A DNA stretch of 64,000 nt, taken from Gemmatimonadota bacterium. Lineage in GTDB: Bacteria; Gemmatimonadota; Gemmatimonadetes; Longimicrobiales; Gaopeijiaceae. The stretch is taken from positions 62,001-126,000 of the forward strand of contig JAQBXY010000005.1 in assembly GCA_027623325.1 (NCBI GenBank), read 5' to 3'. Each line of letters starts with the position of its first letter. The first letter of the stretch is position 1. This document shows positions 22,836 to 29,528 of this stretch, piece by piece. The position numbers and the translations under genes are program-made. The notes below the pieces were generated by a model. It worked only from the letters and a program-made list of their open reading frames with translations. It made no database searches and was not told the origin of the DNA.

Positions 22836-22882
22836 GGAAACCCGAATAGGAACCGAAGTAGGTTACCCGAACGTTGCCCGAA
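22836..22882 (-). promoter_or_regulatory. Four phased TTCGG repeats, candidate LexA operator
   Basis: Read on the minus strand, four 11-base units occur in two back-to-back pairs: TTCGGGCAACG (22882-22872), TTCGGGTAACC (22871-22861), then a TAC spacer, TTCGGTTCCTA (22857-22847) and TTCGGGTTTCC (22846-22836). Each pair is TTCG-N7-TTCG. The block lies 23 bases upstream of lexA and covers the start codon of trpC. Direct-repeat operators with the same 11-base period (GTTC-N7-GTTC) are known for LexA of alphaproteobacteria; use by this LexA is inferred. Confidence 0.5.
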
Positions 22883-23701
22883 ACGCAAGGACAGGACTCG
22901 CTTCCCGGGATTCTCGCGTCGATCGTCTCCACGAAGCGGTCCGAGGTCGATGAGGCGCGCACCCGGGCGCACGATATCGAGGGCGCGCTTGATACGGCTC
23001 GGCCGGTCCGCGACTTCCGCGGCGCTTTGGCGAGGCCCGGCACGGTATCCCTGATCGCGGAATGCAAGCGGCGCTCCCCCGGGGCGGGGGCGATCCGGCC
23101 CGACATCAACGCGGCTGAGCTCGCATCAGGCTACCAGAGCGCCGGCGCTTCTGCCCTCAGCGTTCTCACCGACGGTGAGTACTTCGGAGGCTCGCTCCAA
23201 GACCTCGTTGACGTGGGCGCTGCGACGACCCTTCCGGTGCTCCGAAAGGACTTCACGATCGATCCCGTCCAAGTGATCGAGGCCCGCGCCGCAGGGGCTG
23301 ATGCGGTCCTCCTCATCGTCCGGATCCTCGATGATGTCATGCTCGAGTTGCTGCATCGGGAAGGGGAGGGGCTCGGCATGAGCGTCCTGGTCGAAGTGCA
23401 TGACGCCACCGAGTTGGAGCGTGCCCTGCGGCTCGGCTCGGTGATTTTGGGAGTGAACAACCGCGACCTCGCGACATTCACGACCGACCTCGGCACCACC
23501 GAGCGGCTTCTCGGGCAGCTTCCCGACGACGTTGTGGTGGTATCCGAGAGCGGCATTCGGAATCGTGCGGATGTAGAACGGCTGGGCAGCGCGGGGGTCG
23601 ACGCGGTTCTGGTGGGGGAGGCCCTGCTCCGAGCCGAGGACCCTGCGGAGGCGGCTCGGGCGCTCTCGGGCGTGTCGAACCGGGGGCGCAATCGTGTCTG
23701 A
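22874..23701 (+). CDS. trpC: Indole-3-glycerol phosphate synthase TrpC
   Basis: It closes the indole ring from CdRP in tryptophan synthesis. The catalytic Glu63 and Lys65 are in LIAECKRRSPG; LRKDFTID supplies the next lysine and VNNRDL and SESGI the phosphate-binding end of the TIM barrel. The TTG at 22874 is the only usual start codon after the in-frame stop at 22859, giving 275 residues; it falls inside the repeat block shared with lexA. It overlaps trpF by 8 bases. Confidence 0.93.
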   Translation: MPETQGQDSLPGILASIVSTKRSEVDEARTRAHDIEGALDTARPVRDFRGALARPGTVSLIAECKRRSPGAGAIRPDINAAELASGYQSAGASALSVLTDGEYFGGSLQDLVDVGAATTLPVLRKDFTIDPVQVIEARAAGADAVLLIVRILDDVMLELLHREGEGLGMSVLVEVHDATELERALRLGSVILGVNNRDLATFTTDLGTTERLLGQLPDDVVVVSESGIRNRADVERLGSAGVDAVLVGEALLRAEDPAEAARALSGVSNRGRNRV

Positions 23702-24362
23702 CGGGCCCAAGGTGAAGATCTGCGGACTTACGCGGAGTGCCGATGCCCGCCTCGCCGACGACCTTGGGGCCGACTATGTGGGCGTGGTAGTCTCGGCTGG
23801 CTTTTCTCGTAGCGTGCAACCGGAACGCCTCGGAGAGGTCGTGGCGGGGACTCGCGCCTTTCGCGTGGCGGTTCTCGTCGACGAGGCGCCCGAGGCGGCG
23901 GCCGCACTTGCTCGGACGATGGGGGCGGCGGTGCTCCAACTTCACGGTGATGAGAGCGTCGCCGTGGTCCGGGCGCTTCGGTCGGAGGGTGATTGGCGCC
24001 TGTGGAAGGCCGTGCGGGCGCAGTCACTGGAGGATGTGAGCCGCGCGGTCGATCGGTTCGCGGACTGCGTCGATGGTCTGTTGGTTGAAGGATGGCGGGA
24101 CGGCGTGATCGGTGGTGCCGGCGCCAAGCTCCTCCTCGACCCCGACTCCGTCCGTGGCGCCATACCGCATCACCTCGAATTCGTGCTGGCCGGAGGCCTC
24201 GCGCCGGATTCCGTTTCGGTCTCCGTCTCGCGTTTTCGTCCGGACGTCGTCGACGTGTCTTCGGGTGTCGAGGCGTCGATCGGCGTCAAAGACCCTATCC
24301 TCATGAGAACCTTTTTCGCGTCCGTGCGTATCCCGACGGACCTGCCTGATGTGGAACCGTGA
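23694..24362 (+). CDS. trpF: Phosphoribosylanthranilate isomerase TrpF
   Basis: It isomerises PRA to CdRP. The catalytic cysteine lies in KVKICGLTR (Cys10); LQLHGDES (about 82-89), the LLLDP aspartate (about 145-149) and the closing [14 protein letters not shown] motif are standard. Length 222 residues. It overlaps trpC by 8 bases and trpB by 14. Confidence 0.93.
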
Positions 24363-25584
24363 GCCGGAATCGACTGATATGCCGGGTGTGACCGAGTCGA
24401 CCGAAGCCGAGAGCGGACGCTTCGGCGTCTTCGGCGGTCGCTACGTGCCCGAGACCCTGATGGGGGCCCTCGACGAAGTCGCCGAAGCGTATCGGGCTGC
24501 GTCTGCGGATCCGGTCTTCCAGGACGAATTCCGGTCGCTGAGCACGGATTTCATCGGGCGACCGACACCGCTGTACCACGCCCGCCGACTCGGTGAGGTG
24601 GTTGGTCATTCGGCGATCTTCCTCAAGCGTGAAGACCTGAACCACACCGGCGCCCACAAGATCAACAACACGATCGGGCAGGCGCTCCTCGCGCTCAGGA
24701 TGGGCAAGCGTCGCATCATCGCGGAGACGGGAGCTGGTCAACACGGTGTGGCCACCGCGACCGCGTGCGCGCTGTTCGACCTCGACTGTGTCGTGTACAT
24801 GGGCGAGGAGGACATCGCCCGCCAGGCGCTCAACGTGTACCGGATGCAGCTTCTCGGGGCCGAGGTCCGTCCGGTATCCTCGGGGACGCGTACTCTGAAG
24901 GACGCGACGAACGAGGCGATCCGGGACTGGGTCACGAACGTACAGGACACCCACTATATCATCGGTTCGGTCGTCGGTCCCGATCCGTTCCCGCGCATGG
25001 TTCGCGACTTCCAGTCCGTGATCGGCTACGAGGCGCGTGAGCAAATCCTCGAGCGCGAGGGGAGGCTCCCGGCCGGGGTGGTGGCCTGCGTCGGCGGGGG
25101 ATCCAACGCCATGGGCATCTTCCACGCCTTCGTTCCGGACGCAGAGGTCCAGTTGGTGGGTGTCGAGGCCGGCGGCATGGGGGTCGAGTCCGGACTGCAT
25201 TCTGCTTCACTGGCGGTTGGATCGCCGGGTGTCCTGCATGGCTCGCATAGCTATCTTCTGCAGGATTCGGATGGGCAGGTCGCACCTGCCCACTCCATTT
25301 CGGCGGGGTTGGACTATCCGGGTGTCGGCCCGGAACATTCATTCCTCCAGGACTCGGGGCGGGCGCGCTATACCTTCGTTACGGACGACGAGGCGCTTGA
25401 TGCATTCCATCGCCTCTCGGAATTGGAGGGCATCATTCCCGCCCTCGAATCGGCCCACGCCATTGCGCATGTGTTGGCCGAGGGGCGGACGTACGATGGC
25501 CCGGTCGTGGTGTGTCTTTCCGGCCGAGGCGACAAGGATGTCGCGCATGTTGCCCGGACCGAGGGTCGGGGCGAGCTGCTGTGA
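24349..25584 (+). CDS. trpB: Tryptophan synthase beta chain TrpB
   Basis: A PLP enzyme that makes tryptophan from indole and serine. The PLP lysine is Lys104 in HTGAHKINN, followed by [14 protein letters not shown] (about 125-138) and the phosphate-binding GGGSNAMG (about 248). The length of 411 residues fits TrpB1. The start lies 14 bases inside trpF; an internal ATG at residue 11 is also possible. Its normal partner trpA is displaced by two other genes. Confidence 0.95.
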
Positions 25585-25593
25585 GCACGTAGC

Positions 25594-27330
25594 GTGAGCG
25601 AACCGCTCGACCCGGCGACCCCTCCCGACGAGACGTTGGACTGGGACGAGGACCAGCTTCCCGTCGAAGCGGTCCGATCCCTGTTCGTGACGTTGGGCAA
25701 GGCGTTCCGGGCGTTCCAGCTCTACGACGAGAACAACCCGGTCCGGCAGCGCTTTGTCGAGACGTTGAAGAACGAGTTCGTGGCGTTGTGGCAGGACATG
25801 GACAAGCTCGTCGTATCGATGGACGAGGACCACATCTACCTCGGTGGGGCCGAGGTGTATCGGTCCGAGAGTCGGAACGACTCCCTCGCCTTCCTGTTCT
25901 TCAAGGATGGTGTCCGCGAGGTCACCTTCCTTCCGGGCCTCGAAGAGAACGAGTTGGATCAGTTTCTCGGTGTCTTGCAGAAGGCCCGCAAGCTCGTTCC
26001 CGAGGGCGATGACCTGCTGACGGTCCTCTGGGAGGAAGAACTCGTTCACTTCCAGTACCAATACGTCGATCTGCTGGCCGAAGGGGTGGCGCTTCCGGAG
26101 GCGGGCGGTGGCAATTCTGGCGAAGAGCTCCAAGCCGCCCTCAAGGCTGAAGACGAGGAGATCGCCGCCGCGGAAGAGCAGGGGGCCGCGGGAGCCGCAG
26201 CGGATACGCCTCAGACGGTCAAGCAGGACGATTTCAACCCGACGCTCTACGTCCTGGATCCCCGAGATATGGAGACCTTACGCGCGGAGCTCCACAAGGA
26301 GATGAAGCGCGACATCCGCACGGACGTGCTCAAGGCATTGTTCGATCGCCTCGAGGAGCCGACCGACCGGGAGCGTCAGTCGGAGGTGCTCGGGATCCTC
26401 GACACGCTGCTTCCCAACTTCTTGAGTCGCGGAGGCCTCATCGCCGCGACCAATGTGCTCCGGGAGCTGAGACGCCTCGAACAGATCCAGGGGATGTTCG
26501 ATGAGGAGGGGCTAGCGAAGTCGAGGGATATTCTCGAAGCCATCAGCGCACCGGAGGCGATCGAGGAACTCATCCGGGCCCTCTACGACGGGACCATCAA
26601 GGTGTCGTCCGCTCAGCTCGGGGGCTTTCTCCAGTTCCTCTTGGGAGGCGCGCTCGCTCCTCTGCTTCGCGAATCGGAGACGGTAGAGCACCGGGAACTC
26701 CAGGGCGTTCTCCGAAAGGCCGTCCAGGGTATCGCCGACCGGAATCGCGAGGCGCTCGTGCGCCTGCTCGGCGAGGACGACCCACTGTTGGCGTCCGCGG
26801 CGGCCCGTCTGGCCGGCGAGATGCAGATCACGCAGGCCGCGCCCGCTCTCGCGAAGCTCCTCGTTCACGCCGATCCCAGGGTACGCCTCGCGGCCATCGA
26901 CGCTGCGATCGCGCTCAAGGCCTCGACCGTCGCGGGTGCGCTCGAGAAGACGCTGGAGGATACCGAACGGGAGGTCCGGATCGCTGCGGCCCGGGCTCTC
27001 GGTGAGCTTCGCTATCTGCCAGCGGCACGCACCCTCTCCGGCATCATTCGCGGCAAGAGAATCCGGACCGCGGATGTCACCGAAAAGTTGGCGGTCTTCG
27101 AAGCCTACGGGCAGACGGCGCAAGGCGATGGTGTCGGGCTGCTGGATCAACTGCTGAACAAGAAGGGCCTGCTCGGGAACAAGGAATCGTCTGAAATCCG
27201 AGCGGCGGCAGCATTGGGACTGGGTCGCATCGCTGGGCCCGAGGCTCGAGCCTCTCTGGAGCGCGCGACCCAGGACGAGGATCCCGTGGTTCGTAGCAAC
27301 GTCAATCGCGCTCTGCGCCAGGAGGATTGA
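25594..27330 (+). CDS. HEAT-repeat protein with N-terminal domain shared with the next gene
   Basis: Function unknown, 578 residues. Residues about 28-130 form a domain that matches the N-terminus of the next gene: LYDENNPV against LYPVENETV, DHIYLGGAEVYR against GDFFFLNETRLR, then LAFLFFKDGVREVTFLPGLEENELDQFL. An alanine- and glutamate-rich linker follows (about 170-205), then a helical region. HEAT-type repeats occupy about residues 385-490 and 533-577, with typical phrases such as DPRVRLAAIDAA and EREVRIAAARALGEL. There are no membrane segments. It follows trpB by 9 bases and precedes the HD-GYP gene by 3, so it is part of the trp transcript. HEAT repeats usually mediate protein contacts. 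Confidence 0.75.
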   Translation: MSEPLDPATPPDETLDWDEDQLPVEAVRSLFVTLGKAFRAFQLYDENNPVRQRFVETLKNEFVALWQDMDKLVVSMDEDHIYLGGAEVYRSESRNDSLAFLFFKDGVREVTFLPGLEENELDQFLGVLQKARKLVPEGDDLLTVLWEEELVHFQYQYVDLLAEGVALPEAGGGNSGEELQAALKAEDEEIAAAEEQGAAGAAADTPQTVKQDDFNPTLYVLDPRDMETLRAELHKEMKRDIRTDVLKALFDRLEEPTDRERQSEVLGILDTLLPNFLSRGGLIAATNVLRELRRLEQIQGMFDEEGLAKSRDILEAISAPEAIEELIRALYDGTIKVSSAQLGGFLQFLLGGALAPLLRESETVEHRELQGVLRKAVQGIADRNREALVRLLGEDDPLLASAAARLAGEMQITQAAPALAKLLVHADPRVRLAAIDAAIALKASTVAGALEKTLEDTEREVRIAAARALGELRYLPAARTLSGIIRGKRIRTADVTEKLAVFEAYGQTAQGDGVGLLDQLLNKKGLLGNKESSEIRAAAALGLGRIAGPEARASLERATQDEDPVVRSNVNRALRQED

Positions 27331-27333
27331 TTC

Positions 27334-28758
27334 GTGTCCGACGGCGCTCTGAACTATCAGGATCTGGGAAGGAAGCTTCTCACCGGATTCTACGGCACCC
27401 TGAATGCACTCAAGCTGTATCCCGTCGAGAACGAGACGGTGCAGCAGGCGTTGACGGATCTGCACAACCTTGTCGAGCGCATCGTCAAGGTCGACGGGTC
27501 GGCCGAGATCCGCGTCGTCGGGGATTTCTTCTTCCTCAACGAGACTCGGCTACGTCTCGATGTCACGAATTTTGCCACGTTCGGCTCGTTCGCGAGCGCA
27601 CTCACAGCCCATGGCATCGGTGGCGTCGAGGTCGTGAATGGGGTTCAGCGGGCCGAGTGGGCGCCGCTGCTGGCGATGCTGCTCCGTCCGCCCGCGGGAG
27701 AGGACCCCTTCGCGAGCTTCATGGAACGCTTCGCGCAGACGCCCGTCGAGCACATCGACCTGAAGCCAGCGACAGAGGTCGAAGACCCGAAGGACGACGA
27801 GGAGGCCCTCACCGCGGCCAAGCGTACGTACGCGCAGTCGGTCAAGGTTGCCCAAGAAGTGATGGGCGACATGCGAATCGGGAGGGCGGTGAACGTTCGC
27901 AAGGTCAAACGAGCGGTGCAGGGGATCGTGGACCAGGTGCTCTCGAACGAATCGTCGATGGTCACGATGACGACTCTCCGAGACTTCGACGAGTACACGT
28001 TCACGCATTGCGTGAACGTCTCGATCTTCAGCGTCATCATCGGTCAGCGCCTCGGCCTCGAGCGCATGCAGCTCTACGAACTGGGCCTCGGTGCGCTCTT
28101 CCACGATATCGGCAAGCAGAGGCTCCCTGCGGAGGTCATCAACAAAGCGGGCGCGCTCACGGACGAGGAGTGGGCGCTGCTCAAAGAGCACCCCACCGAG
28201 GGCCTCCTTCTGCTCTTCCAGATGCATGGATTCACGGATGTGCCGTACCGCCAGATGTTGATGGCGTACGAACACCACATGAAGATCGATCTCACAGGAT
28301 ATCCTGCGAATACGCGGGAGCGTGAGCCCACGCTCTTCTCGAGGATCGTCTCGGTGGCCGATGCATTCGACGCAGGTACCTCCGTTCGCAGCTATCAGTA
28401 CGAGCCCTGGCCGCCCGATGCGGTGCTTCAAGAGATGCGGGACAATCCGAATCGTGGGTTCGACAAGTTGCTGGTGAAGGTCCTGATCACGGCCACGGGT
28501 GTGTATCCTGTCGGCACGCTCGTGATTCTCGACACCCACGAGTTGGCCATCGTGTCTCACGTCAATCCGAATCCCGATTTGCTCCATCGGCCCAAGGTCC
28601 GCGTGATCTCCGATCCTGTCGGCCTCCCGCTCCCGGAACCGAAAACGATCGATCTGGCGGCGTCGGACCCGAGCACGGGAGCTCCCGTGCACCAGATCAT
28701 CAAGACGACCGATCCGCAGAAGTACGGGATCCGCGTGAGTGACTATCTGATCGCGTGA
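27334..28758 (+). CDS. HD-GYP-type phosphohydrolase
   Basis: A 474-residue cytoplasmic protein. Residues about 10-115 are the domain shared with the preceding HEAT protein. The HD-GYP domain runs from about 165 to 390: His225 (THCVNV), His257-Asp258 (HDIGK), His286 (KEHP), His314-His315 (EHHMKID), the motif TGYP at 321-324 and Asp343 (VADAFDA). The metal ligands are present; the canonical DGxGYP reads DLTGYP, so the first glycine is lost. HD-GYP proteins usually hydrolyse cyclic di-GMP, so that is the likely activity, but the substrate is unproven. A strong AGGAGG lies 7 bases before the GTG. GTGA couples it to trpA. Confidence 0.85.
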   Translation: MSDGALNYQDLGRKLLTGFYGTLNALKLYPVENETVQQALTDLHNLVERIVKVDGSAEIRVVGDFFFLNETRLRLDVTNFATFGSFASALTAHGIGGVEVVNGVQRAEWAPLLAMLLRPPAGEDPFASFMERFAQTPVEHIDLKPATEVEDPKDDEEALTAAKRTYAQSVKVAQEVMGDMRIGRAVNVRKVKRAVQGIVDQVLSNESSMVTMTTLRDFDEYTFTHCVNVSIFSVIIGQRLGLERMQLYELGLGALFHDIGKQRLPAEVINKAGALTDEEWALLKEHPTEGLLLLFQMHGFTDVPYRQMLMAYEHHMKIDLTGYPANTREREPTLFSRIVSVADAFDAGTSVRSYQYEPWPPDAVLQEMRDNPNRGFDKLLVKVLITATGVYPVGTLVILDTHELAIVSHVNPNPDLLHRPKVRVISDPVGLPLPEPKTIDLAASDPSTGAPVHQIIKTTDPQKYGIRVSDYLIA

Positions 28759-29528
28759 TTGAGTCCGTCTTCACGGCGCTGCGCTCTGAAGGGCGAGCGG
28801 CGCTCATCCCCTACGTCACGGCGGGACATCCGCATGTCGACTCCACGGTTCCATTGCTGGAGGCGCTCGCCGATCGGGGAGCCGATGTGCTCGAACTTGG
28901 AATTCCCTTCTCCGACCCGTTGGCGGACGGTCCCACGATTCAACAGTCGTCCTTTCGGGCGCTCGCCAACGGTATGTCGGTCGCCCGGGTCCTGGAGGAT
29001 CTCTCCCGCTTTCGAGCGCGCCGAGATACGCCTGTTGTGCTCTTCACCTATCTCAACCCCGTCGTGAGATTCGGTTTCGAGCGTTTCCTCGCTGCCGCGG
29101 TCGACGCGGGTGCGAATGGCCTCCTGTTGACCGATCTCCCGCTGGGCTCGGACTCTGCCCTCGAAGATGCTGTGGCGGCGTCGCCGCTCGACTTCATCCG
29201 CTTGGTCGCGCCGACGACGGACACCCAGAGGGCGCAGGAGGTCGCACGGGCCGGGTCCGGTTTTCTCTACTACATCTCGAGAACCGGGGTAACGGGCGCC
29301 CAGTCGGAACTCCCTTCCGGACTCGAGGCCGAAGTCCGCAGAATTCGCGAAGTCGTCGACCTCCCAGTGGCCGTCGGTTTCGGGATCTCAACACCGGAGC
29401 AGGCGGGGAGGGTGGGGGCGATCGCCGATGGGGTTGTCGTCGGCAGCGCACTCGTGCGCACGCTGGAGCAGGAAGGGGTCGAGGCCGGGGCGGCCTTCAT
29501 CGCCTCGCTGCGCGCGGCGCTGGGATGA
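28755..29528 (+). CDS. trpA: Tryptophan synthase alpha chain TrpA
   Basis: It releases indole from indole-3-glycerol phosphate and channels it to TrpB. The catalytic Glu47 and Asp58 lie in LELGIPFSDPLADGP. The phosphate-binding GFGIS and DGVVVGSALV motifs close the barrel. Length 257 residues. Its GTG overlaps the HD-GYP stop by 4 bases, so its translation is likely coupled to that gene rather than to trpB. Confidence 0.95.
   Translation: MIESVFTALRSEGRAALIPYVTAGHPHVDSTVPLLEALADRGADVLELGIPFSDPLADGPTIQQSSFRALANGMSVARVLEDLSRFRARRDTPVVLFTYLNPVVRFGFERFLAAAVDAGANGLLLTDLPLGSDSALEDAVAASPLDFIRLVAPTTDTQRAQEVARAGSGFLYYISRTGVTGAQSELPSGLEAEVRRIREVVDLPVAVGFGISTPEQAGRVGAIADGVVVGSALVRTLEQEGVEAGAAFIASLRAALG

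Follow-up and report, generated by a model that had tools for sequence, protein, structure and literature searches.

The closest described relatives of the HD protein analysed here are HD-GYP proteins such as PmGH, PA4781, V-cGAP3, DvhD, PmxA and Bd1817, the last of which lacks the Tyr of the GYP motif and the last Asp and was reported to be inactive on cyclic di-GMP (PMC8177086). RpfG-type HD-GYP enzymes act through protein partners (cited in PMC4877007). Non-trp genes of unrelated kinds are on record from the slot between trpB and trpA in Flavobacterium, Burkholderia and one Sargasso Sea contig, in a survey that calls them possible morons and also lists lexA and truA as frequent trp neighbours (PMC2395257). 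The locus described here, from Gemmatimonadota, has two genes in the same slot, encoding a HEAT-repeat protein and an HD-GYP protein with homologous N-terminal domains. The inserts of that survey are not identified as HEAT or HD-GYP in its available part; unlike them, the insert here consists of one particular pair of genes, kept as a module throughout a class. The presumed partner of the HD protein is the HEAT protein, in place of the GGDEF partners of RpfG. No paper on a HEAT/HD-GYP pair in Gemmatimonadota was found in the open-access literature, and the locus holds a genuine and conserved pairing, apparently undescribed, of known protein kinds with an undescribed shared domain.

The analysis started from one window, a stretch of 64,000 nucleotides, in which all genes of the operon lie on the + strand. 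The HEAT gene runs from 25594 (GTG) to 27330 (TGA) between trpB and the HD gene and encodes 578 aa, and the HD gene runs from 27334 (GTG) to 28758 (TGA) between the HEAT gene and trpA and encodes 474 aa. Upstream in the same operon are trpC, trpF and trpB (22874..25584; PF00218, PF00697 and PF00291), with the end of trpB at 25584, and downstream is trpA (28755..29528; PF00290, E 3.4e-87), which starts with GTG. When coordinates and starts were rechecked, the gaps from trpB through the pair to trpA were 9, 3 and -4 nt, exactly as the preliminary description had given them, the last being a 4-base overlap (GTGA, 28755..28758, +) between the stop codon of the HD gene and the start codon of trpA. 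What had been called the trp operon is more precisely trpC-F-B-(pair)-A in the window, as trpD is set apart by a divergent lexA. An AGGAGG stands ahead of the HD start, within the 3' end of the HEAT gene. Across the loci compared, the gap between the HEAT and HD genes has a median of 1 nt and is an overlap in 31 of 79, and the -4 overlap between HD gene and trpA occurs in 17 loci, among them the remnants L091, L093 and L094 described below.

We read the pair as a two-protein cyclic-dinucleotide phosphodiesterase signalling module that uses the trp operon for its expression and has the HEAT protein as a dedicated partner of the enzyme, and regard this reading as moderately probable. The HD protein would be an HD-GYP phosphodiesterase, predicted to be dinuclear, whose substrate would be cyclic di-GMP or another cyclic dinucleotide related to it. 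The two proteins may pair through their related N-domains, as a hetero- or homo-oligomer, and the HEAT solenoid could dock or gate the enzyme on a target, or could instead receive the signal. The module would be co-expressed from the trp operon, and a ribosome reading through the pair would deliver translation to trpA.

The HD protein consists of the N-domain (residues 7-150), linker helices (154-211), the HD-GYP domain (220-390) and a strand-rich C-terminal domain (391-474), with a pLDDT of 82.7 for its AlphaFold2 model. The HD domain is matched by PF13487 (E 2.7e-16) and PF01966 (E 5.7e-12), and its metal and GYP motifs (28006..28362, +) comprise H225, H257-D258, H286, H314-H315, GYP at 322-324 and D343. 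The seven metal ligands and GYP are kept in every aligned trp-locus ortholog, down to about 46% identity, so the intact H...HD...H...HH...D ligand set noticed in this one protein holds throughout them, and the GYP triad is invariant across 38 aligned sequences. The nearest solved proteins, by sequence and fold, are HD-GYP phosphodiesterases. Foldseek and VIA fold matches include Bd1817 (Z 24.3, rmsd 3.2 over 225), DvhD (Z 17.4, rmsd 5.3 over 189), PmGH (Z 15.6, rmsd 3.8 over 182) and PA4781 (Z 15.2), in alignments that cover mainly residues 152-391 of the HD protein (and 239-577 of the HEAT protein) and thus lie largely outside the N-domains. Fold, metal ligands and GYP triad are common to the HD protein and the group of PmGH, PA4781, V-cGAP3, DvhD, PmxA and the inactive Bd1817. 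The HD protein differs from them in its signature, HHM...GYP instead of the usual HHE, in its undescribed N- and C-terminal domains and in its constant HEAT neighbour; PmxA, unlike it, carries Cache and HAMP domains (PMC4877007). It also differs at position 221, four residues before the first His, where some HD-GYPs have Glu and all aligned trp-locus orthologs have Tyr. With this constant Tyr221 in place of the third-metal Glu, the site is predicted to be dinuclear. The trinuclear subclass represented by PmGH was rejected as a model for the protein, because the Glu serving as eighth ligand is absent.

The altered signature (HHM and Tyr221) is also the first argument for a different reading, in which the pair acts without hydrolysis of cyclic dinucleotides, the HD-GYP domain being a nucleotide-responsive switch or a hydrolase of another substrate and the HEAT protein its effector. 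This reading would suit the HEAT scaffold and the best fold match, Bd1817, with its reported inactivity, and it would also suit the duplicate copies of the pair outside the trp locus, of which L087, L111 and L113 have degenerate HD-GYP motifs and several lack individual ligands or the HD-motif lysine. The trp-locus copies, however, keep all metal ligands and GYP over class-level divergence, unlike Bd1817, and we consider the reading unlikely. As several of the non-trp duplicates are degenerate, strong constraint falls on the copy at the trp locus. Within the genus, conservation of the HD protein roughly equals that of TrpB and exceeds that of TrpA or TrpC.

The HEAT protein has its N-domain at about residues 22-160, followed by a low-confidence linker (about 160-215) and a helical region with HEAT repeats that extend to the C-terminus (AlphaFold2 model, pLDDT 87.0). 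The HEAT-repeat C-terminus proposed from the sequence agrees with a PF13646 match (E 4.7e-23) and with the solenoid fold of the model, in which residues 411-577 resemble alphaRep-type HEAT solenoids with Z up to 19 by model comparison. Repeat sequence and solenoid fold are thus like those of alphaRep-type and PF13646 scaffolds, and it is the N-domain shared with the HD protein that sets the HEAT protein apart from them. NblB and CpcE/CpcF were rejected as counterparts, their likeness to the HEAT protein being repeat similarity only.

The N-domains correspond to 25657..26073 (+) in the HEAT gene and 27352..27783 (+) in the HD gene. BLASTP between the two single sequences does not detect an N-terminal homology (E 3). 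We compared the two family profiles, each built from relatives of the respective protein, with hhalign, and obtained a probability of 94.6, an E of 6.5e-8 and a score of 50.7 over 103 columns, which is far above the controls: 50 column-shuffled profiles reached at most a probability of 2.8 and a score of 20.2, and a reversed profile gave a probability of 0.9. The two N-termini are therefore homologous, as the preliminary description had proposed. In the AlphaFold2 models both N-domains (residues 23-131 of the HEAT and 7-115 of the HD protein) have the same order of elements, helix-helix-three strands-helix-strand-helix. No Pfam family matches the N-domain of the HEAT protein and a PDB sequence search gave no convincing match, and the domain common to the two proteins is apparently an undescribed one. 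In the genome of the window it is confined to the HEAT and HD proteins; elsewhere in the phylum it is also found in other proteins, for example in an HD protein of G235. In one long protein (L178, G016:C82) it occurs twice in tandem, together with an AAA_16 domain.

To describe the distribution, we combined a survey of phylum Gemmatimonadota with a scan of genome contigs, in which the query was a close relative and all matches were Gemmatimonadota. The HD protein was found in 200 of 297 genomes. The HEAT gene stands directly 5' of every examined full-length HD relative whose contig reaches that far, usually with both genes between trpB and trpA, and the order trpC-(F)-B-HEAT-HD-A beside lexA and truA is common to several families of the class. 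The trp-embedded pair is thus not a peculiarity of one genome and recurs throughout the phylum; it is ancient and widespread, and has been in the trp operon since an ancestor of the class. It also duplicates as a unit. The duplicate pairs of G016 and G124 retain both N-domains, HEAT and HD distances are correlated (r 0.92), and the duplicates are placed alike in both trees. Duplicate or diverged pairs adjoin carA (L076), a TPR protein gene (L087), pilin-like and response-regulator genes (L111) and metabolic genes (L110 and L112). At L076 the second HEAT-HD pair lies immediately downstream of carA, another biosynthetic gene. The HD proteins form a widespread HD-GYP subfamily, unnamed as far as we found, that combines an undescribed domain with a HEAT protein as dedicated partner; cyclic-dinucleotide signalling has received little study in this phylum.

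We also compared signalling genes between genomes with and without the pair. Among 59 related genomes, GGDEF domains number 3-23 in pair-positive and 0-6 in pair-negative genomes (p 1e-7; size-matched p 8e-5). HisKA kinases, taken as a control, are likewise scarcer in pair-negative genomes (p 0.016), so part of the GGDEF link reflects signalling genes being lost in general. Even so, a difference in the GGDEF/HisKA ratio persists (p 0.002). These p values treat genomes as independent points, which related genomes are not. MshEN domains, which bind cyclic di-GMP in some pilus and secretion ATPases, were found in each of the 12 tested genomes with the pair, and 5 of 13 without it lack them. The distribution of GGDEF and MshEN domains supports a cyclic-dinucleotide context, without proving one. 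PilZ receptors are nearly absent in pair-positive and pair-negative genomes alike; they give no explanation of the pair, and their scarcity counts against our reading of it. Flagella were rejected as the linked process, as FlhA is present in 11 of the 59 genomes and most pair carriers are without it.

The class-wide slot between trpB and trpA, co-directional and with short gaps, could suggest that the pair regulates, or answers to, tryptophan synthase or tryptophan supply, for instance with N-domains that sense a tryptophan intermediate or tether TrpA or TrpB. The pattern of losses argues against this. In several genomes trpB joins trpA cleanly, or a short remnant takes the place of the pair, and on a tree of LexA, TruA and TrpB the pair was lost with trpBA retained in about 8 changes, 5 of which are forced by well-supported branches. 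Conversely, lexA-HEAT-HD is kept without trp genes at the locus in L069, L084, L140, L142 and L143, which takes at least 3 changes (3 on the same tree). In G022, G031, G093 and G205 trpA is elsewhere in the genome, and in G022 and G031 the pair did not move along with it. No trpA was found in the pair-bearing single-contig genomes G198 and G222, nor in G145 and G287; these four are only 87-95% complete, so the absence is less certain in the fragmented ones. The neighbours lexA and truA are as conserved at the locus as the pair, and synteny alone is therefore no argument for shared function. An Rfam search of the window matched no known trp leader or T-box RNA. Because of the independent losses and the duplicates away from trp genes, the pair is not functionally bound to tryptophan synthesis, and a role as tryptophan regulator is very unlikely. 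The conserved trp position more likely reflects a conserved architecture of the locus, and genes firmly kept in one operon with a biosynthetic pathway do not necessarily share its function. Since the pair survives without trp genes and vice versa, its most likely role is that of a signalling module carried along in the operon. The small signalling module tied to tryptophan synthesis that had been proposed thus keeps its first half, given the shared N-domain, the intact HD-GYP metal motif, the HEAT scaffold, tight gene coupling and a pair that is duplicated together in the manner of a module, and loses the tie to tryptophan synthesis.

That the HEAT and HD genes are two unrelated passengers merely using the trp promoter, as the possible morons mentioned above might suggest (available part of PMC2395257), is highly improbable in view of the shared N-domain, the strict HEAT-HD adjacency also outside trp, the co-duplication and an HD protein as conserved as TrpB.

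Two further observations concern the downstream side of the locus. In L061, whose contig ends inside the HEAT gene, HEAT-HD is followed directly by an NFACT gene, without trpA, which is possibly a further trp loss. The NFACT (Rqc2-like) gene downstream of the locus gives a split alignment in L084 and L088, which suggests that it contains an insertion or varies in its middle part.

Six genomes of near relatives carry remnants in which an internal deletion has joined the first part of the HEAT gene to the last part of the HD gene, at differing break points (L091, L094, L095, L098, L100 and L093/L104). Five of the six remnants keep a single frame as far as the overlap with trpA, and one is frameshifted (L093, also L104). 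L091 has less HEAT and more HD than L094, and L095 has more HEAT and less HD than L100; as they retain opposite parts, neither member of each couple derives from the other. With L098 and L100 taken as one, at least 4 of the 5 independent events preserve the frame; for 4 of 5 the chance is about 0.045 if each has a one-in-three probability (range about 0.02-0.05). These in-frame remnants weakly suggest a need to carry ribosomes through to trpA, and could also reflect chance or a functional fusion. From the overlapping stop and start we infer that trpA is translationally coupled to the HD gene, and the eroding remnants are a natural test of such a relay.

Between the divergent lexA and trpC lie two direct repeats CCGAA-N6-CCGAA (22841..22882, +). 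All 67 loci examined have this motif close to lexA, 64 of them in two copies and 3 in one, with one other match in the lexA-bearing loci, and a longer form of the pattern has 2 matches in the window against 0.15 expected. None of the classical LexA boxes CTGT-N8-ACAG, GAAC-N4-GTTC and GTTC-N7-GTTC was found in lexA-trpC regions, and GAAC-N7-GAAC is present in 6 of 62 of them. No sigma-70-like promoter was found for the operon, and terminator-like sites are no more frequent than chance. On the lexA strand, one repeat overlaps a TTGCGT-N17-TATTGT-like promoter (by eye, in L142 and L143), and in trp-less loci the same kind of repeat stands directly upstream of HEAT-HD. The repeats are a probable LexA operator of a phylum-specific kind, and LexA control of the operon is possible. 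A broader idea is that the HEAT scaffold and the HD-GYP phosphodiesterase, joined by their homologous N-domains, form an undescribed paired-domain system, ancestral to the class and expressed from the operon divergent to lexA, which would place DNA damage (through LexA), amino-acid gene expression and cyclic-dinucleotide turnover under one control region; we consider this unlikely. The CCGAA repeats have an 11-base period.
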